A stretch of 37,599 nt of DNA from Perkinsus chesapeaki. Its lineage: Eukaryota > Perkinsozoa > Perkinsida > Perkinsidae. The notes under the pieces are model-generated. The model was given only the letters and a program-made list of their open reading frames with translations. It was not told where the DNA came from and did no database searches. Shown piece after piece: positions 7,309 through 26,250 of this stretch (its first letter is position 1; the number at the start of each line of letters is the position of its first letter). Where the stretch lies: positions 1 to 37,599 of the forward strand of contig JAAPAO010000344.1 of NCBI GenBank assembly GCA_013115145.1, read 5' to 3'. Position numbers and translations under genes: made by a program.

Positions 7309-7812
7309 GGTTCATCAGATGGAAGAGATGAACCTGATCTCTTTAGTAGAGGTCACCCAAATATTTTCCAGTTACGGGTAAAGACCGCAAGTTGCGGTCC
7401 GCAACTGTCGTTAGCCTGTCGTCAACATTCATAGATTATGAATCATAATCAGAGCCCCCTGCGGGTTCCATACAAGAGAAATAGCAACCCCTCACCTTCT
7501 TCGGAGAAGAAGAATGGATAAGATTCTTCTCCATACATGTGAGTTTCATGATGGGACACAACCAGGCTAGTTGAACTAGCTGTTAAACCCAGTAACTGGG
7601 TCAACTTGACCCACACGGGCGCCCTGCGTGCTAGGCTAATGCAGTGCCTATACACAGTAGAGCATGTTAATTCAATGAACACAAGAGATCAATAATGAGT
7701 GAGCGCACTCCTGAACCAGGAATTCTGAGTCAGGATTCCTGACTCCTGGTCGGACCAGGCTTAGCCGCTAAGGTAGGGGAGAGAACAACAGAGAGCATTG
7801 CTCTCAGAGCAA
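7309..7812. repeat. Palindrome swarm block A (10 one-base-centre palindromes)
   Basis: Perfect inverted repeats with a single central base begin at 7383 (arm 8), 7390 (8), 7434 (8), 7566 (7), 7587 (7), 7598 (7), 7727 (9), 7745 (7), 7791 (7) and 7798 (7). Examples are ACCCAGT-A-ACTGGGT and GAGTCAGGA-T-TCCTGACTC. Neighbours such as 7383/7390, 7587/7598 and 7791/7798 share an arm. A GGTTCATC/GATGAACC pair with a 10-nt loop starts at 7309. Sequences are unrelated to one another. No gene is evident in this block. Confidence 0.9.
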
Positions 7813-8135
7813 GTGACGACATATTCTACGTCGTAGACCTCTCGTGTCCTCAGCTCGTAACCTTTGGATCTTAAGTCAGTAAATCACACTATGAAACCAT
7901 CAAAGTTTGACGTTCAAAAATTCAGACTCAAAATTCGACGACAAGATAGGGACATTACGAAGCTGTTAATGCAAGAAATCCCAGCCTAGGATGTTTGTGT
8001 AGGATTGGAAGCACGGCTAGCTGCGAACGCGTGAGAAAAATTTAGGTTGATTGCAACTTAGATCACGAGTAGTGTGCGCTATCTTGTATTATACAATTAG
8101 TATATTCCGTCACGCTATTGAATTTCAACAATAAC

Positions 8136-8953
8136 CTGTTGAATCAACAGTGTTGATGTAAGTTTTCATTTCATCGGGAAAGGTGTAGTCTAGTGCTTTT
8201 CCATTATTAATGGGTTATTAAACCAAACTCCATTGAATTGAACATATTTGACTACGTAGGGAACGCGATGGGCGGAGTTAGCAGAGTCATGGTTAAAAGT
8301 CAGCTAACTTAAGTTACTTAACTGGCCTGGCTTCTCGAGCGCTTATGGCTACTACGCTGAGAACGAGGCATCGACGGGGAACACACTGTTCCCCTGAATT
8401 ACCCTTCCTTTCGGTTCTCCCCATCTGAGGGCGTATCTTCGCCTTCGGTACAGATTTTCCAATCGTACGTTTCTGTAATGAATATAAGGTTACGCAATAT
8501 GCGATAAATGAAATATCTCATGCGGCGTTTACTTTTAACCTTTCCGGGGAAGGCTTCCCCACATTCTCCTCATCTGAGCAGTTATCACGCGCGTTCAGTA
8601 CAGGCTTTCCAATAGTACGTTTCTGGCTCAACGGAGTAAGCCATATGACTTAAAGTCATCGCCGTGGACCAATCTTTGACCGTCTGGGGGGTCTTTCTGG
8701 AGTCCCAAGGTAAATGCCACGCAAAGGACATGGGTGCATAAAGTCGTTCACGTCTCCAAGAATGGAAGACGAAGAAATGAATGCTTCGCCGAGCCATACT
8801 CCTTAAATGGGTGCTAGCACTGCACTTAGACGGCTTCGACCTTCTCGCAGAGGTCAGACACTTCATCAACTTCGCAGTTCTTAGTCGCGGTTGGTTTCTT
8901 GTATATGCCGAGACCGTTGATAACCGCTAGATGTAATTCAATTACAGTAATTG
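8136..8953. repeat. Palindrome swarm block B
   Basis: One-base-centre perfect palindromes begin at 8136 (CTGTTGA-A-TCAACAG), 8546 (GGGGAAG-G-CTTCCCC), 8932 and 8939; the last two share an arm. A GGGGAACA/TGTTCCCC pair with a 3-nt loop lies near 8378. The block also contains the 150-bp-spaced degenerate direct repeat described separately. No gene is supported; an open minus-strand stretch at 9305-8826 begins at GTG and has no recognisable motif. Confidence 0.85.
8417..8625. repeat. Degenerate direct repeat pair, 150-bp spacing
   Basis: The segment 8417-8475 recurs at 8567-8625 with a constant 150-bp offset and about three-quarters identity. Best conserved are CATCTGAG near the start and TTTCCAAT-GTACGTTTCTG at the end. 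It is either a duplicated 150-bp unit or two copies of a small dispersed element. Confidence 0.75.
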
Positions 8954-9158
8954 GTGCCCCGCGCAAGGAATCCAACAGTGAAGATTGGGAAGAATCACTG
9001 GAAGGAGTTGACGGGAGCATTTTTCCATGTCCGCGCCAGAATCGGCTGTGATGAAGAACACCCGACGAGAGATAAAGTGGCGTTAGTCTGTTTGGGTTCA
9101 ACCTACTGGGTTGAAAGATCACCTTCATTTCTATACGCTCTGCGCAGTTCCAACCGCG

Positions 9159-9607
9159 GACGCTACTAGCGTCACTGGGCTCTAGGCCGTATGCCGCCCA
9201 CGTACAGTATCCAACGAACCGGTAGGGCGGCCACATTGGCCGCCAGCCATAATGGCTGAGTAACCAAACGGTCAGAACACTGAGATGCCTCGAATTGACA
9301 TTCACGAAAGATAAAAAGAATAGTACTAACGATAATAGTTATCTTCGACAATGGCAATAGACATGACTACGAGAGAGATAAAATAAATCATTATAATCAA
9401 TCATCTGACATGTAGAGTTCTTGTAGGCTATGGTGTCGTTAATAACGACTCGTTATAAGATTACTCTTCAAGATCGCTCTCGTTTCTAGCTTCCACGGCA
9501 GCGATGTTGACCGAAATACCATTCTCCACGATACCGCAGATACGCATACCTCTAATAAGACGATCGATAGTAACCAAATCAGCATCTGATGCTATCTGAT
9601 TCAGATA
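9159..9607. repeat. Palindrome swarm block C
   Basis: Perfect one-base-centre palindromes begin at 9159 (GACGCTA-C-TAGCGTC), 9244 (CAGCCAT-A-ATGGCTG), 9442 (ATAACGA-C-TCGTTAT) and 9593 (TATCTGA-T-TCAGATA). GGCGGCCA/TGGCCGCC with a 3-nt loop starts at 9226. The 9593 copy lies inside the decayed coding relic at 9461-10130. Confidence 0.85.
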
Positions 9608-10130
9608 CAAATAGACGGCCAATAAAATTGACGTTCTTAAGGAATAGGTCTCTACTGATAGGACCAGTTTGATACAAAACGGCCTTGATATCAATCTTAG
9701 ATTTCTTTAGATCCATACCAATGATACCATTGAATAAGATCATTTTACAGATATAATTATATTTAATACCAGCTGCGTAGATGTAACGGGGTAAGGGGAT
9801 GCACTTCAACTCAGATCCTTTAATCTGATCATAGTCGTATTCACGTAGAGGAGTGATAGACATAACGTGCTCATTCGGCTCCATAGATAGATTACCAGCT
9901 GCGATCTCAAGAGCAACCACTGAGATATACCTTGCAAAGATACCAAGAGTAGATATACGGGGAACTCGGATAAGGGTGAAGTCGGTTAAGGCGGTGGTAT
10001 CCAACGAACCACCTCATATAAAATAGTAGATGTAGCTCCAGTTAAAATAAACTAACGATAGATTGGGCCTAAACTAGACCAGATGTAGGGACTGATACCA
10101 CCAGGTTTACTGATAGCAAGTTCAGAAAGG
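9461..10130 (-). pseudogene. Decayed AT-rich coding relic of foreign appearance
   Basis: On the minus strand one reading frame is open from 10004 to about 9600, and the coding sense continues in another frame to a stop at 9461. Upstream, about 10130-10010, a third open stretch carries one in-frame stop and a further shift. Together they would give about 220 residues. Composition and codon use are more AT-rich than in neighbouring host genes, and no introns fit the breaks. No family is recognised. The even mix of hydrophobic and charged residues resembles viral structural proteins, but this is impression only; a non-retroviral viral insertion, an organelle-derived fragment or an old host pseudogene are all possible. 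The breaks show it is not functional as it stands. Confidence 0.45.
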
Positions 10131-10259
10131 GCGTTTTCATGGTCAGTACAAGCATCAGGGCCGCGAGTCGCGGGCTGACTCTGCCGCTCCTTTCTTGTCG
10201 ATGAGCGCCTACCATCCACCTCCACGATGTGGAGTTCACATAGAAGCGGCGTCCACGCA

Positions 10260-10506
10260 GGAAAGCAAAGCTAACTTTGCTTGCATCGTGTCACACGTTT
10301 CGTGTGCCTCTCCGTGACACGGAGTCTGTGTGGTGCTGTACCTGGTTGTACAGTACAACCCTTTACTCGTGTGTACTACTGGTACACACGAGTACGTAAA
10401 AACGTCCGGGAGGCTTTCCGCGACAAACGTCACGCCATTTCATCCTAAGACTTGAGTAAACTGTCAGATGGTACCGTACCATCGGTAATACTAGTACGGT
10501 ACTAGT
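10260..10506. repeat. Palindrome swarm block D, nearly continuous hairpins
   Basis: About 250 bp consist almost wholly of inverted repeats: AGCAAAG/CTTTGCT (4-nt loop), CACACG/CGTGTG (3-nt loop), CTCCGTG-A-CACGGAG (10310), GGTTGTAC-A-GTACAACC (10344), a 12-bp-arm hairpin with a 5-nt loop (10365-10393), GATGGTAC-C-GTACCATC (10467) and ACTAGTAC-G-GTACTAGT (10490). GTGTCAC/GTGACAC also encloses the second of these. Arms are perfect and unrelated between hairpins. A CCGCGA-G-TCGCGG lies just upstream near 10165. Confidence 0.9.
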
Positions 10507-11071
10507 AGTACTCACGACCCCACATCTTACAACATGGAGTAATTCGTCTCTTGGATTGGTTAGAACAGTCTGGTTTATAATTAAGAAGTCAATGAATTCT
10601 AACAATCGGAATGCCAGTCGAGAAACCTCGCACTACGAATTCGCAGCATGCGACTCGAATTAGCGCTCGGAATTCTGAGCATTCGAAGGAATTCTCAAAA
10701 GCGGTCGTTCGACAATGCCGGATCGCCGATTCGGATCTCAAGAATTAAGTCAATATAAAGGTCTCGTGTAGGCTCGACGGTTAATGTTATGAACCAAACA
10801 CAATGCAAGCGGTCATAACCGTGTTAATCAGTTGTCATGAGCTCGTGCACCTTATCCTTGAAGACCTCAGCTGCTTCCGCATAAAGCCACTAAAATGGAT
10901 CAACAGCGGTGGAGACCCAATCTAATTCTTAACGATGAAGAGTCTTCATTGAAGACGTCAAATACTGGGACATTTCCAGGTTTGATCCAACCGAAGAGAC
11001 CTTGTGTTTGACATTGCCCAATGGACAACATTCGATGAGAACATTCACTGAGATGACAATTTGAAGGAACT
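10507..11071. other. Stretch without confident gene, 3' of the GT34 gene
   Basis: No coding similarity is recognised. An open minus-strand stretch (11175-10900) mostly overlaps the last GT34 exon in a different frame. If the GTATGA after the GDF exon is used as a donor, a small extra GT34 exon could lie near 10995-10910. Confidence 0.4.
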
Positions 11072-13520
11072 TCATACCTGGCATGGAAGTCTGTAATAGT
11101 GACATCCTGGATGATGACGAACGAAGTCTCCATCCTGGTATTCTCTCGATAGTACTGATTGAGCCGTTGCCTCATGGAACGATTGCATGTGCTCTTGTCG
11201 AACCACTCTCACCTAGCGCAGTAAGTCATGCAGGGGGCTGAGCATCAGAGCGTCGAAGAGTCATCCGTCTTCTCTCGGAATCCGAGACTCGGATATTCGG
11301 AAATCTCAGTTTATAGAAGAGCGACATATGACCTTCCATATGCGACAGACCTCTCCGATCTCGTTCAGTTAAGAGAAAGATTCGCCAACACGACAAATGT
11401 GGCAAAGATATCGAAGTAGCCTTCAAGGTAAAAGTTTTACCGTGGAACCCTACCGTAAAACCCTACCTCAGGCGGCCACATTGGGCCATCCAGCCTATCC
11501 CACTCTTCAGACCCTTCAGAATCCAGAAGTTGTCGTGTGCTTCGATCGTACAACAGTTCGTACTGCATTGTACCTCCGTAGTACTGAAGCGTAGGGGGTT
11601 TCGTTCATTGTTACTCTGGTCGCTGCAGTTGTGTTCTCGGCCAGCACCTTGCAAAATGCTCGACTGCCACCAGCGAGTTAGGAAACTCTTGGACCACTCA
11701 GAATTCCTCATCATCCAAACTCCGTTATTGATGCCAGTGCTATCAACTGCAATGAGCAGCTCGACCTGTCTCGGACTGTTATATGAGGTGCGTAGAATGC
11801 GACTTCACCTCGGGGAGATGAATACTCTCTCCTCTTTGGCTTTGAAGCTGAGGATGTATGATATGCTTTAACGTTCGGGTGAGCTCATTGTCCGCCTCTG
11901 ACACCTTGAGTTCTTCCCTATCCCTGTTGGTTGGATGCGAACGGTTATAAGTGTACCTCGCAAACGACTCGTGAACAATCTACCGGCAATATTCACCCCG
12001 AGGCTCACCACTATGGGTTGTAATTCTATAGATCGAACAACGAAGAGACGAAATGACAAAAATAGCGTTGTGCAGGCTTGACAGCAGTGCTTCTAGAGCA
12101 CTTTGTCCTCGAGCGACGAAAGATGGGCAGCGTTGATCAAGCACGGGTTAGAAATCTCCCGGTCGCTGGTTGGTGACTTCCTGCTAGTCACTTGCGACTC
12201 GCAAGTGACTAGCTGCAAGTCGCAAAAACGTGCACTCGTTGGAGGGCCGATTAGATTTACATTCGTATAACTGAGTCAATGGTTCTGAGAGGGTCCATAT
12301 AGAAGGCATCACAATCCATCCACATCACCCAATCGGGCCTATCTTCACTATCCATAACGTTACGCACGGCATTAACCTACTAATACAGTACATACAGCAA
12401 GTTGCTGCCGGCAACGCTACGGGAAGAGTTGGATAGTAGGGAAACGAATGTAAGGAATCAAGGCTACTACTGTAAAGTGTTTACTAAACAGTTGAGTAGC
12501 AATACCAGACATTGCTTAGGTATTAGGGAAATTGTGGGATAAGGAAGCGATTAGGCTACTCGAGAAGGGATTGGACGTTGAGAGAATTTCTCTCAGAGAA
12601 ATAGAGAAGAATAAAATAACTCGATTATGGTTTCCGATGGTAAATTGGAAGAGCTGATAAAGATACCTTCCAAAAGAATGGCTTTCGTCCATGGATCGAC
12701 ATGTTGCTCTCCGTATTTGGATATATATCCTCCGGGCCAGTGAACTGATGAAGAGTGTACCTTCCACCAAAAAATGAAGACATGTTAAGGACATCGAACG
12801 ATGTGCATCAAAACGGCTTCGGCGAAACCTTCACGTAAATCAGTATCGGAATATTCCCTCCACATGAAGAACTTTGATGCGGAATAGCAAATGGCTCGCC
12901 GTCAGCATTTCTGGTGAAGGTGTCAAACTTATGGAGCAAAACCCAACTAATCTTTTTTCCTACCCGTGAATCTGCGAGTACAGTGCATGGTTCTCTTCAC
13001 TTAGCACTCTCACAGTCTCATTTGCAGCATACCCGCATATACTAACAATGGCAATTTTCATTCCAGGCTCTCGATATCCTCGAATATCTGCTAGTTGAGA
13101 GGAGGTATCGGCTCCTTCGACAAACCTGATGTGACATGATCCAGTCACAGCGTCAGTCTGAGCCCTGCTCAGCTAGTTCTGTACTGTGTGTAGGACTCAA
13201 GGAAGTACACTATGCTCCCGCGGGCCGAGCGAAAGTGTGAAATGGCATGAAAAGCCGCTTCGCCTCGAGATCGGAGATACTATTGGTGTATTATATGTTC
13301 GAAAGCCAAACAATCGGCCCGGGATAACTTACTGTCTCGCGTGGAATGCCCCCAGAAGCATATCCCATCCTTGAATCGGCCATGGTGTACCTTGAGTTCG
13401 ATGTTTAGTCCTATACCGCATCACATGAAGCGTACACTCGTTGAAACCTCCATCCCTTGTGAATATGAACCCCATAAGCAGCAGTGCCTGCGCTCGTCGC
13501 ATCCGACCCTCCAAGGCCAT
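11072..13520 (-). CDS. GT34-family glycosyltransferase (galactosyl/mannosyltransferase-like), multi-exon
   Basis: Type II Golgi-like enzyme using a nucleotide sugar. Exon 1 (13520-13333) starts MALEGRMRRAQALLLMGFIF, a signal anchor. Exon 2 (13125-12964) carries IAIVSICGYA and SEENHALYSQIHG, exon 3 (12760-12667) continues YTLHQF and ends RKPFFWK, and exon 4 (12376 to about 12261) holds the metal site DWVMWMDCDAFYMDPL. The exon at 11765-11574 has INNGVWMMRNSEWSKSFLTRWW, and the last clear exon (about 11222-11072) carries YQDGDFVRHHPG. These match the GT34 order HGY...W.K...DxD...N.G.W..R...W...GDF..H. Phases agree for exons 1-4; the small exon near 11855-11815 and the segment after 11574 are unresolved. 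I end the gene at the in-frame TGA at 11074. Palindromes lie in its introns (11280, 11427, 12183, 12580). The start has TTGGCTCAAG two bases upstream. Confidence 0.85.
11280..11441. repeat. Two one-base-centre palindromes within the GT34 gene
   Basis: ATCCGAG-A-CTCGGAT begins at 11280 and GGTAAAA-G-TTTTACC at 11427. Both fall in sequence I read as intronic between the W..K/NNGVW part and the final GDF exon. Confidence 0.85.
12183..12213. repeat. Perfect palindrome, 15-bp arms, one-base centre
   Basis: The left arm GCTAGTCACTTGCGA is followed by a single C at 12198 and its exact 15-base complement. It is the longest palindrome seen in the window. It lies in the GT34 intron after the DxD exon. 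The flanking GCTGCAAGTCGC repeats part of the arm again, as if a third copying step followed. Confidence 0.97.
12580..12602. repeat. Overlapping palindrome pair
   Basis: GAGAGAA-T-TTCTCTC (12580-12594) overlaps ATTTCTCT-C-AGAGAAAT (12586-12602), sharing one arm. It lies in the GT34 intron between exons 3 and 4. The nearby stretch 12536-12570 also loosely resembles the 63-bp repeat unit at the left edge (GGGATAAG... TAGGCTACTC). Confidence 0.85.
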
Positions 13521-13532
13521 TTCTTGAGCCAA
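13521..13532 (-). promoter_or_regulatory. Spliced-leader-like 3' end before the GT34 start codon
   Basis: On the minus strand TTGGCTCAAG (13532-13523) is followed by AA and then the GT34 ATG. These ten bases equal the 3' end of the dinoflagellate/perkinsozoan spliced leader (known to end ...TTTTGGCTCAAG). The rest of the leader is not recognisable upstream. It may be a relict leader from an old cDNA insertion, or just an AG acceptor that resembles it. Confidence 0.3.
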
Positions 13533-13559
13533 GGACCAATACCTTGGTAAGTAGTGGAG

Positions 13560-14160
13560 CCAAACTAGCGACTTTTTCACACTACAAACTTGCTGTAGCC
13601 ATGGGGCACTCGAACCCCAAATGGAATGGTGTAGTTGCGGTATTGAGGAGGGTTACTAGTTGATGCCTCCTATGTTGCCTTGCAGATGTCCCGGCGAAGG
13701 ACAGCGCGCGTATTTTGTATCTGTCTGCAGACTTCGAGAGAAGCTAACCAGCCCTAGCCAGATCCAAAAGCAAGGAAATTTGCAATTGAGCATGTATGAC
13801 TGTAGGAATCGAGGCAGTTGCGATAACTCCATAAAAGCCTGTATTGGAAAGCATTACAGCTCTTCTCCTAGTATCTCCCAGTCGAGCCCCATAGCTGTCC
13901 TCGGACACTCATCTGATATGTCAATCTTGAAATAATCACACTCACAGAGACCATCTGGGTTTGGCTGTTCCAAGTTGCGGCTCGTGACCAGCAGGAGGAG
14001 TGTGGAGCCAACGAGGAGCATGTTATCCTGGGCAACTTGCTACTTTCAATCGATAAACGTCTTTAGTGGCTCAGGCTGAATCTGTTTTCATGATTGGTTT
14101 TAGACCAACGGTTTATAATCTTGTTTCGACCACAAGTCGCTCGTAACGAGTTCGCATAAT
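13560..14160. other. Stretch without recognised gene upstream of GT34
   Basis: Open stretches exist on both strands but none shows a motif, splice pattern or start context that I can support. It should contain the GT34 promoter, which is not identifiable by sequence here. Confidence 0.4.
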
Positions 14161-14163
14161 CAG

Positions 14164-14736
14164 GAGCACCTTCGTGCTAGGGGCTACCCGACAGCCGCTG
14201 TCGGCCCCCCAAGCAGAAAGCTATCACGTTTCTGAAAACAAGTTTACGTCCATCACAGGCTTCTGCCGAGTCTTGCGGATAATCCCTTCGGCCACGCGAT
14301 GAGTAATCACTTTGACAAGTGTTGCCATGGTGCAGCACGTGAGCTACTATCCAATCACAGCTCCTCTTCAGTGAAGGATGTTACACAATGCCTCGGATAT
14401 ATGGTTACCAGAACTGTAGAATCGAGAAATAGTGCTGGTGCGTTCACCTGTCTTCGATATTTGTTACACATTAATTTCTCATTGAATAATATTCGAACGC
14501 AAAACTCAAAGTTACAGTGGAGGCTTTTGCGAGTCACGCAATGGCCGTCACTATACAGTAAGTCTATCATAATCCATCCAACAACGAAGACTCAGCGCCG
14601 CTGAGCTACTGACGGGTTGAGCAATCAATGCTTGGAAGTTTGGGATTAGAAATGTCATTGAACATTTTAAGATAAATCAGAAGAAGCACGGATGCTTTAC
14701 TATCACCGTGGATCACGGTCCGTGATAGTATCACGG
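14164..14736. repeat. Palindrome swarm block E
   Basis: CCGACAGC-C-GCTGTCGG begins at 14188. ATCACGG-T-CCGTGAT (14712) and CCGTGATA-G-TATCACGG (14720) share an arm, and CTATCAC/GTGATAG with a 15-nt interior encloses part of them. AGCAC/GTGCT with a 4-nt loop is near 14165. The second cluster ends about 60 bp beyond the stop of the small secreted-protein gene at 14794. Confidence 0.88.
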
Positions 14737-14793
14737 CAATAAGACATTCCATTGAAACCGCAAAAACCGATGGAGTCATAAATCTTGGGGAGA

Positions 14794-15237
14794 TTACAGG
14801 GGACGGTCGTAGATGTATCGAGATACCCCATTTTTCCAATACATAATGATAGTGTTCGACGGCACATATATAACCATCTGCCTCAAGGTCAAAAAGACTT
14901 TCAACTCTCTAAACGCTCGCCGAAACTTCTGAGGTAGACGTGTCTTCGAGTGGATGTTCAGAATACCACCGGGCTCAGTAGTGTAGAGAGCAGAGATGTA
15001 CTCCCTTGAAGGTCTGTTAGTTTCAACTTCATCGCTGAGAACGAAAGTAAGGTTGCAAACACCAACAGAGCCACGAAAGTGAAGCTCCGTGACCGGGACC
15101 GTTCTAGCAGTTGAGTTGAACTGAAGCGTATATTTGCCGTACAGGCACGCGGGACATGTGGACTCGGACGGAGGAGCAGGTAGGGCGATGACAACGCAGA
15201 TGACAGAAGCGAAGGTGGAGAGGATAATATTGCGCAT
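14794..15237 (-). CDS. Small secreted protein, lineage-specific, function unknown
   Basis: An intronless 147-codon ORF starts at ATG 15237. Residues 1-20 (MRNIILSTFASVICVVIALP) are a clear signal peptide with a likely cleavage site before PPSESTC. The mature part has CPACLYGKYTLQFNST, alternating beta-strand-like segments and a GSVGVCNLTF stretch with a possible N-glycosylation site, which resembles beta-rich secreted proteins of protist parasites. No catalytic motif is seen. The ORF is open further upstream to 15309, but only from a non-ATG codon, so 15237 is preferred. It could be one member of a larger family; this cannot be tested from one copy. Confidence 0.55.
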   Translation of the reverse strand: MRNIILSTFASVICVVIALPAPPSESTCPACLYGKYTLQFNSTARTVPVTELHFRGSVGVCNLTFVLSDEVETNRPSREYISALYTTEPGGILNIHSKTRLPQKFRRAFRELKVFLTLRQMVIYVPSNTIIMYWKNGVSRYIYDRPL

Positions 15238-15309
15238 AATGATCTGAATTCGCTGCCAGACAATTGAACAATAGGAGAACGGGATAACGATCGCCGAGCA
15301 ACAAGCCAC

Positions 15310-17151
15310 GGGCCTCTAAACAGTTAGACTTGAAACCTCAGCGCGGAAACAGTGCGCAACCTGCAGTCAGATACGTAGACATTTTCTCCTAATACATACA
15401 ATGAGCGTATTGGAGACAGCACGCATGTCGTTGTAGGAAAGCGAACAAGTGGATGAACATGCGCCACTCCAAATTGTGGCCACGATCTCCATAGGTCGTG
15501 AAGATGTATTGCTGTTTATCAACTCGACACTTATGCCCGAGTGGGGGAAAACTGCTTACAATTTCTTAGTTGGTCTGAACCTTTTATGAGCAAAAGTCGA
15601 TTATGGCGCCTATCGCCTGCGTGCGGACCAACTCCCACGCATGCACATGCTACCTTTCTGTCGACAATAGAGAGACAGAGTAGCCCAATCTACAAGGACT
15701 CCAATCGAGAAAAATGGATAAATACCGCAGCTAGTATAACAGTAGCCCGACTGCCGCCACTGCGTCATCGTAGCAAAGAAAAAATAACGGAAAATGACCA
15801 CATAATCATCACTGAGTAGCCCTTGTGCGGAGGGAGCCATCTTGTGGGGAAAAAGTGAACTTCACGGCGCAAGCGGCGAGCCAACACAAGCCTCATCCGC
15901 GCACCTAGGATCGAGGATCATGCGCACATCCCGCGATGTGCGGGCCGCACATTGTCGTCGTCCGGCCCATGTAACATGCATGCGTACCATCTTAATTCTT
16001 TCCATTATGAGGATTCATGTGCGCACTGGAATTATATTTCGGAGCTCCACTTCTGAATGGTTAGCTTTCTGGCCTTCTGTGGCACCTCCAGAAGACTCTT
16101 AGAACTGGGTCAGAGGGGCCTGTTATAAGCAGTCCTTCCTACTTAGCTTACTCTCGCTACAGTAATTCATTCTCTAATCCTTCAAGGACTCAAGTCTTCT
16201 CTTCTCAGAATTTCATACCACAACTGGCCGTCATGTCACCTGTGATCTTACAACGGTGAGGCCTTTCAACTTGGGAGATCAAGAATTGGATCGGGCCGAT
16301 TACAACCATTCACCTTTATACCATCGGTATGGGAAACCTTCAAGTGACTTGACCTATGTTTTAGTCTACTCCGAATAACTGCGATAAAAATTCGCGTGTG
16401 CGAGGATTCCCATATGCTTTGTCAACCCAGTTGCCCACGTAACGGTTCGAAACTTCGGCTAAATTCGCCGACCGTGATGTTTTTTGTGCCTAGCTACAGC
16501 TCAGCGAGGAGTACCCAATGCTAAGGTTTGCGCTCAGGAAGGATCGGCGGAAATGGGGCTGCTCTAAGTCCATTTTCACGTGTATAGTAAAACTCCTAGA
16601 ACACATGTCTCCACGATAGTAAGTGCAAGCTTTCGAGTTATGCTGGGATGGACTCTATTCAGGACCTATTCAGTCCAATCCACCTTCGATTGAAGTCTCC
16701 AAACTACCATGCTGAGCCCAGCGGTGTCCTCAGATTAGCGTCCAACCGAGACCGGTGGAATCAAGAGAAATTCAAAGTACGCATCGGTTCCCATAATCGC
16801 ACTGTCGTCCCGTAGAGTTACTGTGAGGGTGAAATGCACAAGTGATATATAAATATATAACGCATAAAATCCGATCCTTCAATACAAGTGGCCCGCGTAT
16901 CCTCAATTTTTGAAAAGTAAGCAATTTCGTGGCGCGCGACATTCCGAGTTGCGCTGCCTTTGTGAATTTTGTCTACGGTAATCGACAAAGGCCTATAAAA
17001 CTTAACAGTACGGGCTCACGAATTAACCTCCCGGGAATCGTTTGACTGTCCTGGTATGTCTCTTTGATCGTAACCTTCACGTTTGACCTAAGATTCGTAT
17101 TAGGTCGGGTCAAGGGCTCTCTCAGTTTGATTCCGTTTTCCGTATCCTACA
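15310..17151. other. Intergenic stretch between the secreted protein and OLA1
   Basis: About 1.8 kb with no gene I can support. A plus-strand open stretch at 15541-15819 and others look like chance. A GCACATC/GATGTGC hairpin with a 4-nt loop lies near 15930. Around 16830-16740 on the minus strand a short strand-like open segment (TVTLRDDSAIMGTDAYFEF) could be part of an exon but has no partner. The OLA1 promoter must lie near 17000-17150. Confidence 0.45.
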
Positions 17152-19132
17152 ATGGCCCCCAAGAAGAAGGTAGAAGAAGTGAAGAAGGTTAAATTCGGTC
17201 GACCAGGCAACACCCTCCGTATGGGTCTCGTCGGACTTCCCAATGTCGGCAAATCCACCACTTTCAACGTCCTTACTAAGGTAGCTTGGCTCGCAGGAGT
17301 TTCTATACCGCATTTCTTTCACATCAGTGTTCTATCCCCGCTGAGAACTTCCCCTTTTGCACAATAGATCCCCATGAGGCCGTCGTTAACGTGCCCGACG
17401 AAAGGTAGTGTGTGTTGTTTTCTTTCGATTGGCTCACTTTCCTTCTCAGAATGGATTGGTTGTCGGCCACTTTCAAGCCCAAGAACACTATAGCGGCAGT
17501 TCTTAGAATTTGGGACATTGCCGGTCTTGTCCCCAACGCTCACGAGGGAGAGGTGCGAGCCGCTAACTGGGAAGATTCTTTTGAGGTTGACTTTAGGGCC
17601 TCGGCAATGCGTTCTTGTCGAACATCCAATCGGTTGATGGTATTTATCATGTTTGCCGAGCTTTCACTGATGAGGATATTGTTCATACCGAAGGAGAGGT
17701 GATATCTTAGGTTGAAGCGTGCAAGATGCACAAAATGTCGATTCCCTGCGCGTTTCTCAGGTTAACCCCGTTCGGGATCTCGAGATCATTCAGAATGAGC
17801 TTATCTTCAAGGACTTGGCGCAAGCTACCAATCGGGCCGCCGAGTACGCCAAGAAGGCCGAGCAGAATAAGAAGATGAAGGAGCTTCAAGAGGAGTAAGA
17901 AGTACCTGCTCCTATCTTTCTACTATGCGCTTTATTTTCAGATACGAAGCTCTCACCAAATGTCAGAAGATCCTTGAAAGCGGAAAGCCTCTCCGTCTTA
18001 ATGCCGACTGGACTTCCAAGGAGGTTGAGATAGTCAACAAGTAGGCTCGGTCGTATAGCTTCTCGGCTTTGAAGATGAGGTTACCCCTCACTGCATTTGT
18101 ATAAGATGTTGGATCCATCGAACCATTTCTGAATTTCATTTGTCGAATCGATTCTAGTACAGAAACTTACTTGGCGAAATTTCGTTGGACGACTAGTGGT
18201 CTGTCTTTCACAGGTATCAATTCCTCACCACCAAGCCCACTGTCTACCTCGTCAACATGAGCGAGAAGGATTTCATCCGTCAGAAGAACAAGTGGCTCCC
18301 TAAGATCAAGGAGTGGGTGGACGCTAATGGCGGTGGCCCCATCATCCCCTACTCTGCTGCATTCGAGATGGACTACCAAGAATGCGGTAACTTGTTTCCT
18401 GTGAGACTGTGCCCGTGAAGTGTGACGGTTAGGTGACTCTGAGGAGGACAAAAAGGCCTTCCTTGAGAAGACCGGTGCTAAGAAATCTATGATCGATAAG
18501 ATCATCAAAACAGGGTACGGCCGACGGCTCTCGAACCGGCGTACTCTCTCCTCAGTTACGACTACCTGGACTTGATTCACTTCTTCACTTGCGGTCCCGA
18601 TGAGGTCCGATGCTGGACTATTCAGCGGGGCACCAAGGCCCCTCAGGCTGCTGGAGTTATCCATACTGGTGAGGGTGTTGTGGCGTATTTCCCAGTGAAA
18701 TCACTAGGCTTAATAATAGGAACGCTTTACTGATATGAATAAGTTACGATGATGCGACTGTTGCTATAATGTGTGTAGTTGTTTGGATTATCTCGAGCCT
18801 TATCCATTCACGTAAAAATGGGAAAGGCTGATCTTTGCTCCACTTGACGCTCAGAATAGGTCAATAGCGTGTTTGGAATTCCGCCACTTGATGCTTGTTT
18901 TGTCAGATATGGAGCGCGGTTTCATATGTGCTGAGACCTACCGTTATGAAGATATTCGGGAGCTCGGCGACGAGAGCGCTGTAATAATCCCTCCTCGGTC
19001 TCACCCAGGAATAATGCTGCTTTCGATTAGGTTAAGGCGGCCGGTAAGCTGCATCAAAACGGCAAGAACTACGAGGTCCAGGATGGCGACATTTGCTTCT
19101 TCAAGTTCAACGTCACCAACAAGGGCAAGTAG
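17152..19132 (+). CDS. OLA1: Obg-like ATPase 1 (YchF/OLA1 P-loop NTPase), complete, 11 exons
   Basis: Cytosolic P-loop ATPase of the Obg/YchF family that binds ribosomes and takes part in translation and stress responses. Exons: 17152-17280, 17328-17404, 17450-17552, 17597-17698, 17761-17894, 17942-18040, 18214-18386, 18433-18514, 18556-18668, 18907-18980, 19031-19132. All junctions are GT-AG and in phase. Motifs in order: G1 [10 protein letters not shown]3-like [18 protein letters not shown], the YchF NMSEKD (replacing NKxD, which explains ATP preference), and the C-terminal TGS domain ending [10 protein letters not shown]. The N-terminus is basic (MAPKKK). The length, near 395 residues, matches eukaryotic OLA1. 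No frame defects are seen, so the assembly is reliable here. Introns are mostly 43-51 nt, with longer ones at 18041 and 18669. The next gene begins only 130 bp after the stop on the same strand. Confidence 0.97.
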
Positions 19133-19262
19133 ACGACGCCTTCGCGGTGGCGCCGCCGAACTGTCTCCTCCGAGTTTCTCCTTCCACCTCACACCCGCTC
19201 TGGTCTAGCGTTGGGTTGTCGGGTGAAATATTTGGGAAGTGTTGAATTGCCAGTTGTCAATC

Positions 19263-21747
19263 ATGGCTGAAGAATATTTCACAGCGAAGCGGCGGTACCT
19301 GCTGCATCAGGGAATTGACCCTGACACTGTCATTAGAGAAGATGATGACTGGGAAACTGAGTAGTAGCGGGGGATTCTTGGATTAAGTTTTTACAGTAGA
19401 AATCGTCCTATGGGGATCATTCCGCTCGAATATAGAAAGCTAATCGGTAAGAATGTCAGTACTGAATGCAATGCGCGATTGGAACTTCAAGTGTGGTTCA
19501 TAGTGAAACTTTCATTCGTAGGATTTGTAACTTTGTGCCATATGCTTCATATGAAGTTTATGTCATATGATATGAATGGTATTTTTGCGAAGATAGCTAA
19601 GCGTCCTTAAGCTATCTGTTTAGAGGCGCATTACTTCTCAGTTGGACATTCCTCCCCCGTGGAAGTCGCTTTACACACTCATTTGTTGAGCCAGGGAGTC
19701 ATGAGCGGAACATCGATCAGGGGCGACTTATGTCTCCAGGAACATAATACAGTATGTTCAATATTCAATAAGGAAATCGTCATTATATTAGAAATTAATT
19801 TCAAGACGAGTTGCTCATTTTAACTGCTCTTTAATGATTCAGGTCTCAAAAGCTATCATCTCTCCTTGAAGAATATGAACGATCGGTAGACGTTCGAGCA
19901 GCATTGAGTTATGTTTGCTGTCGCGATATCACAGTTCCGTTGGAGGTGCCTCTGGCAGAAGACACCGATAAGGTAATACAAGCTCTGCACTGCCGGTTCA
20001 AAATTAAATCTACGTCATATAAATTCTCATATCCCGGCATACTGGAGGCGTCACATCCGTTTCTTCTAGGGATTATTCAACGCCCTCTACCTCACACGAT
20101 TTGGTCGAAACTGTAGAATTAGAAAGGGTAGGAAATTGGCCCGAGTTTAGAAAATTGGCCCAAGTTGTCGTCGATTAGCCAGGCTATTATTCTGTCGTAT
20201 AGGTGTAAGTCTGACTATTAATCTGTCGTATAGGTGTAAGTCTGACTATTATTCTGTCGTATAGGTGTAAGTCTGACTATCATTCTGTCGTATAGGTGTA
20301 AGTCTGACTATTATTCTGTCGTATAGGTGTAAGTCTGACTATTATTCTGTCGTATGGGTGTAAGTCTGACTATTACTCTGTCGTATAGGTGTAAGTCTGA
20401 CTATTACTCTCTCTTATAGGTGCTGTGTCTGGGAGCTAACATGGTGGAAACACCGGTCTACGCGGCACAGATAATATCCAAGCGACTTGAGCAGAGTTCA
20501 GCTCGACCGGTATGTACATTCACCTCACTTCAGGACATAGGCAGGTTTCTCCTCAGCTAATTCTCATCATTTCCGGTGGCATTGGCCGACTCACACCGTT
20601 GCTGTGCGACAATGTGATAGCTTGGTCCAAGAAGGAAGACTTAGTGGATCTCGGTAATATGGACGGCTTATTATTGTGGCCGACTCTCAATATGGTGCGG
20701 GGAGGGCATAGTTGTCTCGAGGAAATACATACCTCTAAACATGCACGCTCGAACACGTAGGCTTTTTTGTCAGCTACCAACCTTACCCGTGGAGAGGTAC
20801 CGTACCAGTCCAAGCTTAAAGGGCTCACCGAAACTGAGAAGCTGGAGCCAGTTCGAGAGGAAGACGCAATACGATTCAGCCGAGATGGATACAAGTCGAG
20901 GGACGATCTAGAAGGGTACTAACAGGTGTGGGGTGGGGTGTACGGGACTCCCGTACCACCCGTAACGGGAGGTTAGGCGGTCTTTACGCCGCGCATCTTT
21001 TAGCTACTATCATCATAGACGTGGACTGAGTCCGCTGGACTCGTTTCTCGCATCGGAGGTGGTAAACAGTTTGGGTTATCTTAGGTTCTTGACTGAAGGC
21101 AATCTCTATCTTGAAGTGATACTGGCGGTTCTAATCGAGAAACAGAAGATAATTGGCTATAGCGACATTCGTTTGTTGGACCGCCACAATGCAGCCTCCT
21201 TCGACAAGAAGAGCTTCTGTGGCAAACTTGTGATCATTCTAGAAAACACCAGCACCAACACGGGCAACAATGTCACCCACACGAAAGAGCTCCTCGGTGA
21301 AGCCAATCTATTGAGCCCCGAGACGCGAATGGCTGTGGTGGATATTCCCTATCTGGGGCGGAGGGCCTTAGCTACTTTGGCCTGGCATTTCGGTGAGCTT
21401 CTGGGAATTTGATCTTGTCGAAACGGATGCTCTGTAGGCCCGCTAGTAGCTGGCTACGAAGCGCGAATGCCTCCTGTGTTGCTTAACTATCCCGAGGATT
21501 TCCCAACCCTTCCCGATAGAGTTTTGGGAGTCCATATGGCGGCAGGAGAACTCATTCGAATGGCTAAGTACGTTCATTTTCCTTGCCTTTTGCGACCCAT
21601 GCATTTAGATATTCAAGGGGCACGGCCAAGCAGAGATTTTTTGACATCCCGGAAGATTTCCCGAGAGCTATTTACCAGCAAGTCGTCGAGGCTGAGCCAT
21701 TATTGAATGAGATGCGCCGTATTCTTGGCGAGCGAATTCCAGCGTGA
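19263..21747 (+). CDS. YdcF/DUF218-like protein, complete, 8 exons
   Basis: Exons, all in phase with GT-AG or near-consensus sites: 19263-19360, 19843-19972, 20420-20509, 20545-20653, 20774-20915, 21085-21392, 21447-21567, 21636-21747. The product has the DUF218 (YdcF/SanA/ElyC) signature: VLCLGANMVETP at the first strand, LILIISGGIGR as the SGG motif, ENTSTNTGNNV as the E-STNT-N motif, and VVDIPYLGRRALATLAWH as the final strand-helix. Bacterial relatives bind S-adenosylmethionine or act in envelope metabolism; the eukaryotic role is unknown. No signal peptide or membrane helix is seen, so it is probably soluble. The PEDFP motif recurs in exons 7 and 8. Intron 2 (19973-20419) holds a 31-bp tandem array whose last, degenerate unit supplies the acceptor of exon 3. 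Intron 5 holds a one-base-centre palindrome (20940). Confidence 0.92.
19591..19617. repeat. Inverted repeat, 8-bp arms, 11-nt loop, in DUF218 intron 1
   Basis: AGATAGCT and AGCTATCT are separated by 11 nt. Just upstream (19540-19576) are several CATATG-centred inverted repeats, including TCATAT-G-ATATGA. Intron 1 (19361-19842) is otherwise unremarkable. Confidence 0.75.
20191..20419 (+). repeat. 31-bp tandem array with splice-site-like ends inside DUF218 intron 2
   Basis: Units begin at 20191, 20222, 20253, 20284, 20315, 20346 and 20377 with an exact 31-bp period; a degenerate eighth unit starts at 20408. Each unit contains a GTAAGT donor consensus, then CTGACTAT (branch-point-like), a T-rich part, and TATAG followed by GT. 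The true exon-3 acceptor at 20419 is the TATAG of the last unit, and there the following GTGTAAG has become GTGCTGT, which codes. Thus the array looks like an intron end duplicated several times. Confidence 0.95.
20940..20956. repeat. One-base-centre palindrome in DUF218 intron 5
   Basis: GTACGGGA-C-TCCCGTAC, arms of 8, is followed closely by CCCGT-A-ACGGG. It shows the palindrome type also enters introns of an intact gene. Confidence 0.9.
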
Positions 21748-21895
21748 TTTTTCTTCTGTTGCGTGTCTAGTTTTTCTTCGGAGTTTTGGCGTTGCGCGGT
21801 CAAAGGATGGAGATTCGGGGCGCCTCGGTAGTTTGTGGGAAATTGAACGCACCTTCATATTCTAAAGTACAGAACAGCAGTGCAGGGTTCAAGCT

Positions 21896-22606
21896 GTCGT
21901 ATTATACGACTCGTATGTAGTCTCCTAATTTGATGAGTGTGAAGGCTCACTCTTTACAGTTAGGGAAATTTCATGCGGGTTGGAGTCCAAGCTGGACTGT
22001 CCAACTGTTATACTACTAGTATTAGGAGTCGACTGAATATCACTAGTCTCATACACGGGACTAGCTCTTAGCTGCTAATTAATAGCTACGTAGTCAAGTA
22101 CTAAGCCAGCTACTTAGTCTGAGACTAGCATCGAAAACTTACGTGGGCCACGCATCAGACTAACGTTCTGTAGCACTGGCTACTAGCCAGAATAAGAGCG
22201 ACAGCTGCGAAAGCTCCAAGTTTTAGAGGATTGTCCACCTTTCCTGTGGTTGAGGCGTCCGAACGGAGATTATGCGGTGAAAGATTTTCTAATCCTTTTT
22301 GCCAAGCATCTAGCTTGAGACATACTCTTTCTAAGTTGAAGACGGATAAGGGCACTCGGGGCTTCATCCTCTGACTCCTGGAAGGATTCGCGCGCTTCGT
22401 GGGCTTAGTGCGACCTCTTAAAAACATACCGACGGAATGTACCGAGTATGACGGTCATACTCAATAACTACTGCTCAGTTATCAATGATAACTTATCACG
22501 TTCTCAGTATCAACATATCACACAGTGGTAACAGTGGCGAAGATCTGCGACAAGGCAAGCACTGATACATCTGTGCTTGCCAGGTTGCATAGACTGGCAA
22601 GCAACC
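21896..22606. repeat. Palindrome swarm block F
   Basis: One-base-centre palindromes begin at 21896 (GTCGTAT-T-ATACGAC), 22176 (CTGGCTA-C-TAGCCAG), 22444 (GAGTATGAC-G-GTCATACTC) and 22478 (GTTATCA-A-TGATAAC). Inverted repeats with exactly 10-nt loops occur at 22043 (6-bp arms), 22555 (GCAAGCAC, 8-bp arms) and 22575 (GCTTGCCAG, 9-bp arms), the last two sharing an arm. GTTGGA/TCCAAC encloses a smaller hairpin near 21980. Confidence 0.88.
22155..22427 (-). CDS. Hypothetical 90-residue protein with C-terminal hydrophobic segment
   Basis: An ATG-started ORF on the minus strand. It has a basic N-terminal third, a polar middle, and a hydrophobic stretch (LKLGAFAAVALILASSQ) about ten residues from the C-terminus, as in tail-anchored proteins. 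No family is recognised. It contains the one-base-centre palindrome at 22176-22190, which encodes LASSQ. Being short and inside a palindrome swarm, it may be spurious. Confidence 0.25.
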   Translation of the reverse strand: MFLRGRTKPTKRANPSRSQRMKPRVPLSVFNLERVCLKLDAWQKGLENLSPHNLRSDASTTGKVDNPLKLGAFAAVALILASSQCYRTLV

Positions 22607-22619
22607 TGAAGTTCCAAGT

Positions 22620-23084
22620 CCTGAACGGATAACTCCAACAGTCTTGAAAAAGTCAAAGGAAAAAGTCAACAGTGCACCAACACGTGTTATACACTGTACG
22701 AGGCCATTGTCTTGATGACAACTACCGTTAGACTCTCCGCTGTGTACTGGGCAGCGAAGCCTCGCACAATCGCATCAGGGCTTGCGGCCATCTTTCTTAG
22801 GAGGATGACAAATTGACATTGACAATGTCGTCTATCAGAGTGAGTTTGTTGCACATGGTGCTACTCGCGAAGACCCGCTCCGCCCGTAGAAAGTTTCTAC
22901 TAGAAACCCGAAGCTGAACTGGCCGTGAAAGCTGTGTTATATCGTATCCGCGGTGCCGAAGAAGCTCTGAATCGAGGCCCTGATAGCCATTCAGATGCGG
23001 TGGTCTCCGCCTTGGCTGCAGACTATCTAAGATAGTCTATCTTCACATCCTTGGAGATGCTGATTACCCTGCATGCATCTGGGC
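22620..23084. other. Gene-free stretch between swarm block F and the MULE relic
   Basis: I see no coding segment with a motif and no strong repeats. It is probably decayed transposon or intergenic sequence. Confidence 0.4.
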
Positions 23085-23543
23085 TCATATAGAAGTCCGA
23101 CAACATAGCGATAAACGACATTTCGTAGTTGCGGTCCATACTGGGAGCCTAAGTACGCGGGAAGCGCGACCTTCGATCATGCTGGCTATCTTGCCCAGGT
23201 TATGGTCCACTTCAGTGAGGACCTCGCGGAGAGCATCGCCTGAGTGTGTGTCTCTGTCTTTCTGGCCCCACTTGGTATTCTCAGACTTCCCAGCGTCGAG
23301 CAGGGCCCTCTCCCCAGAAATGGCTCCTCTATCCCATTCGGCACGGAAGTCTTCCGGATAAAACCAGTGCTGAACATAGGGGCGTGCGTCAGAGCGTAGA
23401 CAAGCTCGTTTGACACGCCCTTGGTTTTCCTTACGGAGGCTTAGAGACCACGCGGCGTGGAACAAGTAACCGCGTAGATTCTGATTATCGAGCTCGAACA
23501 CGTCAGAGACAGCGTTTCGGAGGCCCTTCTCGAAGTCTGTCAT
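23085..23543 (-). pseudogene. MULE-type (Mutator-like) transposase fragment
   Basis: A 152-codon open fragment starts with TDFEKGLRNAV and continues to GYLFHAAWSLSLRKENQG. This matches the MULE transposase DDE domain pattern, an acidic DFE followed after about 20 residues by G-C-LFH and a short G-terminated helix; the usual cysteine is Tyr here. The other catalytic acidic residues and the zinc finger are not seen on either side, so only a domain fragment remains. The tail beyond about residue 70 has no recognised match. It could be a domesticated remnant, but its surroundings suggest a dead element. Confidence 0.5.
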
Positions 23544-23962
23544 GACACGCTGTACATGGAACTCTCATCTGCGAGCTAGAATGACACGTTTCAACTCGCG
23601 AAGTCTTCGCGAGAACGAACCGGTAAGTCCTCTCTTGCTTGTCAGGTAGAATAGCCTATGCAAGGGGGAGTGAGGATCATATCGTACAGTGCAAGCTCGC
23701 AGAGTCACTCTGTCAGAGTGCCTATTCGTGTAGCCCTTATCCGTACAGCTGCAACACATAGTTTTGAGCAAATACTTCAAATACTTCCAACTTTGCATTG
23801 CAATTTTGCAATACTTCCTGTTCGCGAAGAAGCCACAAATGGACTTCGAGGACATATTCGTTGGCAAAATACTAGGATTATTAGTAGAATTCGAGCTCGC
23901 ATAGTTTTGCTCGCAATACCGAAAGACTAAATCTCCTCATTTTTTGCCATATCTTCAATCCT

Positions 23963-24238
23963 CTAGGGTTGAAGTGTGATAAACTTAGCAATATCAGCTG
24001 GCATCTTATCCAGGAAGTCCATGGATTTCTGGTTTGCATCAAGGGTGGCACCTACATCTTTTTGTTGTTGGTCAAGTAAGAGCCATTCTGCATAGAAGTC
24101 TTGAAACTCGATAACATTAGGCTGCGATTTCAGCTTGAGCCCTTTAAGTTTGCTCAACAGATCGCCTTTGCGGACCGTCTCGGACTTTTCATAAACACTT
24201 CTAAGATGCTTCTTCAACCCAGACAGTGATACTTTCAT
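23963..24238 (-). pseudogene. Copia-type retrotransposon gag-like fragment (UBN2-like)
   Basis: A 91-codon ORF from ATG has the pattern of the copia gag/UBN2 domain: a helix with LKKHLRSVYEKSE, then LLSKLKGLKLKSQPNVIEFQDFY, then a helix ending FLDKMPADIAKFI, corresponding to the usual L-x-x-LP-x-x-Y/F end. No zinc knuckle, protease or reverse transcriptase is found next to it, and no LTR is evident. It is read as a remnant. Confidence 0.4.
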
Positions 24239-24707
24239 TAGCTATTAGCTTGGTCCCTCGAAAGTAAACATCAGTAATCTTACATGCGGAGCCCTTCATA
24301 GATTGTCGTCGTGCCTTGTACCAGTTTGACCGCGTACGAGTTCAACCCTGTTCCAGCTTGCACTGTACGATATAATACTCACCCCGTAAGGGGTACGAAC
24401 TTACTTTCGAAAGAATAGATATCCGATCTCAGGTGAATAGTTTGAGCGAATGCCGGTGGCTCGCTTGGTCATAGCTTGAACTGCTACACGGCTTTATGAA
24501 GGCCCTACAATTACTTCTAGTAATACTATAGTATACTAGTAATTTACTGGTATACTTTCTATCAATGGAGGTAGTTGTCAGAGTCGACATGCTCGTGGTG
24601 GTCACTTGGCCTAATCACCTGGCTATTTTTGAGGAGGACTCAGCGCTTCGGGCATTGTTCGGCTTGCGCTGAGTCACAGATCGCTATCACAACTGGTGAT
24701 TCACTGG

Positions 24708-24860
24708 CTCACGGTTACCGTGAGGCTCACGGTAACCGTAAAGCTCACGGCGTGAGCTTCACATGGCACGCTCTACGCTTCATCTGGATTCCATGAAGCG
24801 GATGAGGTCTTTACTACTAGCTGGAAATGAAGGCCATCCAATAGCGGCTATTGAATAGCC
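24708..24860. repeat. Palindrome swarm block G
   Basis: CTCACGGT-T-ACCGTGAG begins at 24708, AAGCTCACG-G-CGTGAGCTT at 24741, CAATAGC-G-GCTATTG at 24839 and GGCTATT-G-AATAGCC at 24846; the last two share an arm. CTTCAT/ATGAAG with a 9-nt loop lies near 24779. CTCACGGT recurs three times within 50 bp in alternating orientation. Confidence 0.9.
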
Positions 24861-25401
24861 TGATGATAAACTCACTATACTAGCCGATGGCCCGGACCAG
24901 TTCCTCACTCGAGTACCTCACCTAGTGTGGTCACAGTCCAAGGGCTTCCCCAAGTTTGATGACAACTGTCTCCCAAAGTTAAAGTTAGGGCTCGTGATTT
25001 GTCACGGCAGAGCTTCTTATAGGTAGTCCCACCAGACAAGAGTCATATAAGCTTACTGTTGGCTGTCGATCAGTTTTACTCATTCACCGTTTTTGAAATT
25101 CAGGGAGCAAACATGGTTATAGAGTCATTCGAGCGAACTCTCGTGGCTTTGCGTGGCACGATGACCTCCCACGTTCTGGGTACGTACATGTTCAGTTGCA
25201 GAGTTCATCAAAAACGGAAATTGCGTGCGCATAAATTACCGTGAAATCCCCATGACGCAGAGGTTGGGAGTGTGAACACTGTAAACACAACGTATAACAG
25301 TGTAGCACAACGTAAGTGCTTACTCTCTGCCAAAGCTATTCAGTAGGGCACTCGGGTCTGCCCGACCTCACGTCTAACACTGACAAGGTCAGCGGACCCG
25401 A

Positions 25402-25853
25402 ATGTCCTACCTCCACTGGAGGTAGGACATGGCATGTCCAGGGGATGCGGAGCGCTGGCTTCAACTCGCATTTACTTAATCACGTTCCACATCCAAACAA
25501 TCTCCGACAATCTTCATTACTAGCTTGAACGGTTCAAGTTGAACCACTATATTCAACGTATGATTCAATTGACGTAGCGCGCCATTTTATGGCGCATCGA
25601 AAAATCTCTGCTTAGTAATATTACTCACGCTGATCTACTTCCAGTTGATCGCTACCATGAAAATCTCTCGAATTTCCGAAGATGCGCGGAAATTTCGGAG
25701 ATCACTGGAATACAGGTTAACGAAGTTTGTCCCTTTTACTTGAGGACGTCTCCCGATTGAGTTGGCACGCGCATTTACGAGTATGTACTACATACTATGT
25801 AGCGTTTGAATCTTGATGGGCGAGCGAAATAGGTTTCATTGAGTCAATGAAAC
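25402..25853. repeat. Palindrome swarm block H, including a 14-bp-arm palindrome
   Basis: At 25402-25430 the arm ATGTCCTACCTCCA is followed by one C and its exact complement. Further one-base-centre palindromes begin at 25524 and 25531 (shared arm), 25780 and 25788 (shared arm), and 25833 (GTTTCATTGA-G-TCAATGAAAC, arm 10). GCGCCAT/ATGGCGC with a TTT loop is near 25579, and AGTAATATTACT is an even palindrome near 25614. No gene is recognised in 24860-26250. Confidence 0.93.
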
Positions 25854-26050
25854 ATATTTGAGTGAAGTTATTCGAGTTGTTAAAGTTGTTTTAGTTTATT
25901 TTCCCGTCCCGCCCTCCCTGGTGAAGCGTCTCTCCAACTCGCATAATGTCGTCAACATTATGTTCTCCGGAATCGATAGTACTTCAGCGCGAGTCGGAGA
26001 AAATAAGAATAAATATAAACATGATCTTCTAAATAAATTCAAGCGCCGGA

Positions 26051-26212
26051 TCGACATAATGTCGACGACGAGTCGTCGGTGTGCTGTCGCATTTGCGAAC
26101 CACGGCATGTAACCTAAATGATGGGATTCATGAAAATTCAGGGACTCAGCCGAATGGGATTCGCAAAGCAGGAATGCCCATGATGCACATTTATACATGT
26201 AGAGTCTACATG
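26051..26212. repeat. Palindrome swarm block I
   Basis: TCGACAT-A-ATGTCGA begins at 26051 and CATGTAGA-G-TCTACATG at 26196; the latter overlaps GTCTAC/GTAGAC with a 3-nt loop. CATAATGT/ACATTATG with a 5-nt loop lies near 25943. This is the right end of the second swarm; none of comparable density follows up to 37.6 kb. Confidence 0.85.
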
Positions 26213-26250
26213 GTAGACACGAAGGAGCACTTAGATTATGTACTGAATGT

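Follow-up and report, generated by a model that had tools for sequence, protein, structure and literature searches.

Palindromes with a single central base in Perkinsus chesapeaki as probable excision footprints of hAT transposons

The 37,599-nucleotide contig JAAPAO010000344.1 of Perkinsus chesapeaki (assembly GCA_013115145.1), called the window below, carries a swarm of perfect palindromes with exactly one central base, which raises the question of what process produces inverted repeats of this odd length. The original prediction listed 47 of them by start position and offered a triloop-type hairpin geometry, a hairpin-based mutational process such as template switching, or a structural function as explanations. 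All 47 listed starts hold a palindrome with one central base (centre-1), four of them starting one base before the listed position. These palindromes are very probably excision footprints of transposons of the hAT superfamily, and their main form is a 22-bp unit in which two palindromes overlap.

Paired palindromes and the word they contain

The window contains 67 perfect centre-1 palindromes with arms of at least 7 bases, against a mean of 2.19 ± 1.6 (maximum 8) in 100 dinucleotide-preserving shuffles, so that the predicted excess over chance is borne out. Counted by centre size, palindromes with centres 0, 2 and 4 number 3, 6 and 7, those with centres 0 and 2 being near background. The counts for centres 3, 5 and 7 (33, 15 and 8) are mostly due to nesting, because a centre-1 palindrome with arms of 8 is also a centre-3 palindrome with arms of 7, and an independent excess for these sizes was rejected. 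A stretch of E. coli of the same length has no centre-1 excess (3, 5, 4, 4, 6, 6 and 5 for centres 0-6). The centre-1 arm lengths (5 at 48 sites, 6 at 26, 7 at 40, 8 at 17, 9 at 6 and longer at 4) peak sharply at exactly 7 and drop beyond. Palindromes with one mismatch are also more frequent with centre 1 (135) than with centres 0 (68) or 2 (47), and their mismatches are spread fairly evenly along the arm, which looks like a pattern of decay. The arm sequences are unrelated, and a repeat family was rejected here as it had been in the original prediction.

What had been overlooked is that the palindromes are paired, with centres exactly 7 bases apart. When each perfect palindrome of the window is compared with palindromes of at most one mismatch, perfect pairs being counted twice, offset 7 receives 38 counts and every other offset up to 30 receives 0-9. 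For 288 perfect palindromes from 288 kb of the genome, a perfect partner lies at +7 in 64 cases and at -7 in 64, compared to 0-4 cases at 11 control offsets, and none of the 288 has one at offset 8 on either side. With up to two mismatches allowed, a partner at ±7 is found for 197 of the 288; of the others, 49 have a further palindrome in the vicinity and 42 are isolated. Ten mononucleotide shuffles of a 297-kb sample produced no double unit.

With a 6-bp block B and primes for complements, the 22-bp unit runs a, B, c, B', a', B, c'. It can be read as a single 8-bp word, T = a B c', placed around its own inverse (T1..T7, T8', T7'..T2', T1', T2..T8), and agrees with the 8-bp target duplication expected of hAT excision footprints. 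The word also has the expected target motif, nTnnnnAn. In the window and the fetched stretches L002-L034 of the same genome there are 96 units with at most one mismatch, a few of them overlapping; T2 is T in 51 of them (p about 2e-8 against base composition), T7 is A in 50 (p about 2e-7 on the same basis), and the other positions are weaker. The final set, in which no units overlap, comprises 120 units, 25 from the window and 95 from elsewhere, and has the same bases in 65 and 58.

The units are widespread in the genome, which comprises 35.4 Mb in 884 contigs. Twenty 10-kb stretches picked by contig number before inspection (190,999 bases) contain 40 units with no more than one mismatch. Extrapolation gives about 7,400 units genome-wide, a figure that is only rough because the density is very patchy (0-16 per 10-kb stretch in a slightly looser count). 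One fetched stretch, L022, reads N in 8,706 of its 10,000 bases.

The predicted preference for non-coding DNA is also found. In 297 kb of the genome, stop-to-stop frames of at least 200 codons contain 7 perfect palindromes in 39,169 bases compared to 317 in the 257,946 bases elsewhere, making them about sevenfold rarer inside such frames. In the window, the regions at 15-19 kb and 27-37 kb, described earlier as avoided, have only 1 and 3 perfect palindromes. Concentration outside long open frames is what might be expected of functional palindromes, that is, binding sites or structural hairpins under selection. This explanation is nonetheless so improbable as to be nearly negligible, and a structural function is unsupported, as the sequences are unrelated, the mismatches occur along the whole arm and paralogous copies differ in the sites they carry.

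Scarred and bare copies of the same DNA

Six pairs of paralogous copies were compared, along with two further pairs involving the stretch L046, with bare words read by eye. The alignable DNA of the six pairs contains 9 units with at most one mismatch, and none of the 9 is common to both compared copies. Six of them lie opposite 13-15 gapped bases in the other copy (one of the six inside a 17-base gap), in keeping with insertions of about 14 bp. The TCTGAAAC unit in L045 is opposite a 24-base gap, which is read as 14 bp plus an adjoining 10-bp duplication, and the TTAGGATG and TGGGATAG units in L033 occupy overlapping sites, one per copy, where the aligner places no gap and which were read by eye. 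The exact bare word T is present in the other copy for five of the nine (GTCTCGGG, CTCATAGG, TCTGAAAC, TTAGGATG and TGGGATAG). The cleanest case, in L033, has GTCTCGGG in one copy and GTCTCGG C CCGAGAC TCTCGGG in the other. At GTCTCGGG, CTCATAGG and TCTGAAAC, comparison of the bare and scarred copies gives a palindrome centre that is the complement of the base that would have bordered the element. The pairs L019 and L033 C have no unit.

L046 and L044 are 98% identical over 596 bases. The CTCATAGG scar is perfect in L046 and changed by one base in L044, and L045 has the bare word; the scar is shared and then altered in one copy, and is therefore inherited and decaying. A weaker unit, with two to three mismatches, is common to L044, L045 and L046, and another, with three mismatches, to L044 and L046; these may be older shared scars or chance. 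The six pairs contain about 10 scars compared to 541 substitutions, which would make scars a notable share of insertion mutations.

L010 and L013 each carry a MULE copy, and over 1.7 kb the two copies are about 91% identical when gaps are left aside. There are 18 perfect centre-1 palindromes in 3.2 kb of L013 and only 1 in L010.

Template-switch mutations have variable arms and spacers, no target motif and no fixed paired unit. If a nascent strand folded back during replication and copied itself (snap-back synthesis), the adjacent inverted copies would be perfect, unrelated, decaying palindromes in non-coding DNA, as seen here, and the 42 isolated palindromes could stem in part from such events. 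Template switching does not, however, predict that arms and offset are both exactly 7, that an 8-bp word carries a T/A motif and is the site of insertions of about 14 bp, or that only a single central base occurs, and the variable, motif-free and unpaired pattern expected of it is not found. As the general source it is very improbable. The hairpin proposed in the original prediction thus survives as a likely intermediate, whereas its formation by replication template switching does not.

The partnerless palindromes also speak against template switching. At ±7 within three mismatches, 74 of the 288 have no partner, yet 34 of these have an A next to the centre. When the 74 were tested in both directions (148 tests), a T suffix at least 5 nt long followed in 21, compared to 2.0 expected with swapped words. 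The sites at L013 388/403, L030 2410/2428 and window 20948/20964 have the appearance of an end-to-end junction between two opened hairpins, and L013 has 22 extra bases at its site relative to L010. Some AT-rich partnerless entries are probably chance, and the remaining single palindromes could have a different origin. A few centre-1 palindromes have arms of 11-25 (L015:1472, L042:4543 and others), which suggests hairpins opened far from the tip.

Hairpin excision and the missing elements

The order of events, the opening of the hairpins and the annealing step are what we infer from these structures. A hAT element would insert at an 8-bp word T of the form nTnnnnAn and duplicate it. On exit, the transposase would cap both flanks with hairpins that have a single unpaired base at the tip, complementary to the base formerly in contact with the element. 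Opening of each hairpin away from its tip would leave T, in inverted form, in a 3' overhang. The two overhangs would be complementary over 8 nt, T having been duplicated on both sides, and could anneal, be trimmed and be sealed, so that the 22-bp product described above replaces 8 bp. If the overhangs anneal through this 8-nt complementarity, the arms and the offset should both be exactly 7 and 14 bp should be gained, as is observed. In a minority of cases the opened hairpins may be joined end to end or one side may be trimmed, giving single or longer-spaced palindromes, and the scars would then be inherited and decay by point mutation. A one-base hairpin tip results from a first nick made one base into the flank, as in Hermes. 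Opened hairpins also give rise to the palindromic P nucleotides of V(D)J coding ends; these have no unpaired tip base and are hence even-length, unlike the odd-length palindromes here.

The individual steps resemble known hAT systems. Hermes makes an 8-bp duplication at nTnnnnAn (PMC10368747, PMC2803484) and its excision leaves hairpin-capped flanks (PMC4763223). The target and the proposed flank hairpins are the same, with the difference that no intact element is seen here and the ends of relics are only tentatively placed. A study of Ac/Ds footprints in plants, S. cerevisiae and C. albicans describes palindromic insertions centred on the complement of the transposon-adjacent base, as found here, with frequent joining at microhomology (PMC5873905). 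In yeast the arms reach up to 20 nt and microhomology is involved in 88-89% of footprints (85-100% across Arabidopsis and yeast), and in C. albicans the arms are shorter and the figure is 51% (PMC5873905). Since hAT chemistry explains a single central base (PMC5873905), the triloop-type geometry of the original prediction is unsupported. The Ac/Ds footprints of that study are heterogeneous and were scored at a reporter gene (PMC5873905), whereas here one 22-bp form dominates and, by extrapolation, thousands have been inherited. Joining through the whole inverted 8-bp word would also set the scars here apart from those Ac/Ds footprints. The introner elements of Amoebophrya, another alveolate, are likened to DNA transposons, and their inverted repeats are 8-20 nt long and their direct repeats 3-5 nt (PMC7789003); they are inserted and spliced elements, whereas no insert is left here.

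Remnants of hAT genes are present in the genome, with the Dimer_Tnp_hAT domain over its cut-off at four places. DNA related to one hAT relic is found at C257, C690 and C736, and DNA related to another locus at C176, C4, C396 and C64, among others. A local family of hAT relics, at L045:2550-3350 and L002:1937 (-), has ends that read TAGGCGCC; its intact duplication was not found, and the ends of the local relics are tentatively placed at TAGGCGCCC. BLAST of the 5' ends of relics against the 3' ends gave no match. A terminal-repeat pattern preceded by the target motif occurs at four genome places compared to none for the reversed control, numbers that are too few to use. A looser element search produced only pairs that seem attributable to chance, low complexity, masked bases or tandem repeats. 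Searches for DUF659 as a further hAT marker and for copia reverse transcriptase as a source of paralogues each had 0 matches, with a control that was silent too. A search for Ku, meant to explain microhomology repair, found one match just over the cut-off with stops inside, so an absence of end joining is unsupported.

Several observations weigh against excision of hAT elements as the source. T2=T and T7=A are combined in only 30 of the 120 units (about 7% would be expected from composition alone). The bare word differs from T at 1-3 bases in four of the nine paralogue comparisons (three in L010/L013 and one in L033 B), which are weaker cases, although such differences would be expected at pair identities of 75-91%. 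The 42 isolated palindromes are only partly explained. The dominance of one form differs from the heterogeneous plant and yeast footprints and from C. albicans with its short arms and only 51% microhomology (PMC5873905). The relics read (L002, L042, L044 and L045) have no full-length hAT frame, where introns are possible. Finally, a search covering elements of 60-7,000 bases lying within one fetched stretch found no convincing hAT element bounded by terminal repeats and an 8-bp duplication in about 288 kb, so that no occupied site was seen. This last point bears on the source element and not on the structure of the scars.

Elements of another hairpin-capping cut-and-paste superfamily, such as MULE, are a quite improbable source of the footprints. 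MULE elements mostly make 9-bp duplications, whereas the 8-bp word dominates here; offset 7 corresponds to 8-bp words, and offset 8 is the one without a perfect partner. The MULE domain does occur at nine genome places, and the MULE element Muta1 is reported to make duplications of 8 or 9 bp, but also to excise precisely in about 90% of yeast cases (PMC5225508). The 8-bp nTnnnnAn target is published for the hAT element Hermes.

The combination of thousands of extrapolated scars with no element in about 288 kb could also point to a domesticated hAT-type transposase, which would make paired hairpin-capped breaks at 8-bp sites without a mobile element or would remove insertions in a programmed manner. 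Such a domesticated enzyme making hairpin-capped breaks is known in Kat1 (PMC4763223). Against this stand the hAT remnants in the genome and the inheritance and decay of one scar, by which scars are not simply remade in each generation. A domesticated enzyme is therefore unlikely, and excision of hAT transposons remains the preferred explanation.

Footprints along the window and their meaning

From the density table and cluster listing, the stretch in which footprints cluster densely (at about 6-15 kb and 20-27 kb) spans 7309..26218. Perfect double-palindrome footprints in the left part lie at 7384..7405 (T=ACCGCAAC), 7791..7812 (GAGAGCAA), 8136..8157 (CTGTTGAT), 8932..8953 (TGTAATTG), 9435..9456 (GTCGTTAT), 10935..10956 (ATGAAGAC), 11273..11294 (TCTCGGAT) and 12580..12601 (GAGAGAAA), and those in the right part at 22886..22907 (GTAGAAAC), 23022..23043 (ACTATCTT), 24839..24860 (CAATAGCC), 25524..25545 (CTTGAACC) and 25781..25802 (GTATGTAG). 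Double-palindrome footprints with one mismatch are found at 7428..7449, 7559..7580, 7722..7743, 8539..8560, 10310..10331, 10491..10512, 21896..21917, 22478..22499, 23699..23720, 26197..26218 and 35078..35099. Another, at 14705..14736, has one mismatch and precedes another palindrome whose centre lies 9 bp further along, and this site may have been hit repeatedly.

Other forms are found among these units. The centre-1 palindrome at 12183..12213 has a long arm (15) and would come from a hairpin opened far from its tip. The site at 20940..20971 (T=TACGGGAG, with the right-hand suffix ACGGGAG) belongs to a second footprint class, in which the left and right hairpin products appear to be joined end to end. 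At 24708..24759 there is a complex nest of centre-1 palindromes (T=TCACGGTA), with the full 8-bp word again 3 bp on, and at 25402..25439 a long-arm (14) palindrome is followed by a second palindrome, with the TCCAG end of T kept at the right.

The window also encodes a nucleotide-diphospho-sugar transferase (PF03407) at 3448-5019 (-), with no perfect centre-1 palindrome inside the gene. Among the 8,000 candidates sharing most words, which were the ones scored, the protein has 77% identity to a Perkinsus olseni protein, 51% to a second P. olseni protein and 33-43% to named dinoflagellate proteins. Exon-like fragments of an E1-E2 ATPase and a HAD-type hydrolase are found at 1650-2279 (-) and 27250-27921 (-), and tandem repeats with a 31-bp unit at 20146-20453 and a 63-bp unit at 1-189. 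No RNA family or tRNA was detected in a scan of the window at default thresholds. Elsewhere in the genome, a repeat of roughly 72 bp at L002:444-516 matches 20 other places at 79-94% identity and is not a tRNA (ARAGORN).

As far as has been seen, the mechanism is known, and the novelty lies in how abundant the scars are, how nearly uniform the repair product is and how few elements accompany them; no description of such an imbalance between scars and elements was found in searches of open-licence papers. A rice comparison on recent DNA transposon activity (PMC4423477) may be prior art for the genome-wide counting of footprints. That thousands of scars occur with almost no elements could mean that hAT elements are removed nearly completely, possibly in a programmed manner or by a domesticated hAT transposase, although this is a tentative idea and rather unlikely. 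If it is true, excision would nearly keep pace with insertion, with repair by a single stereotyped pathway, and scar formation would be a main source of insertions in the non-coding DNA of this genome.

The scars can be read here from sequence alone, giving the target word, the repair outcome and the relative age of each event where few elements remain. Past transposon activity could thus be measured in genomes that have lost their elements, and one dominant outcome of hairpin repair is exposed in an alveolate.

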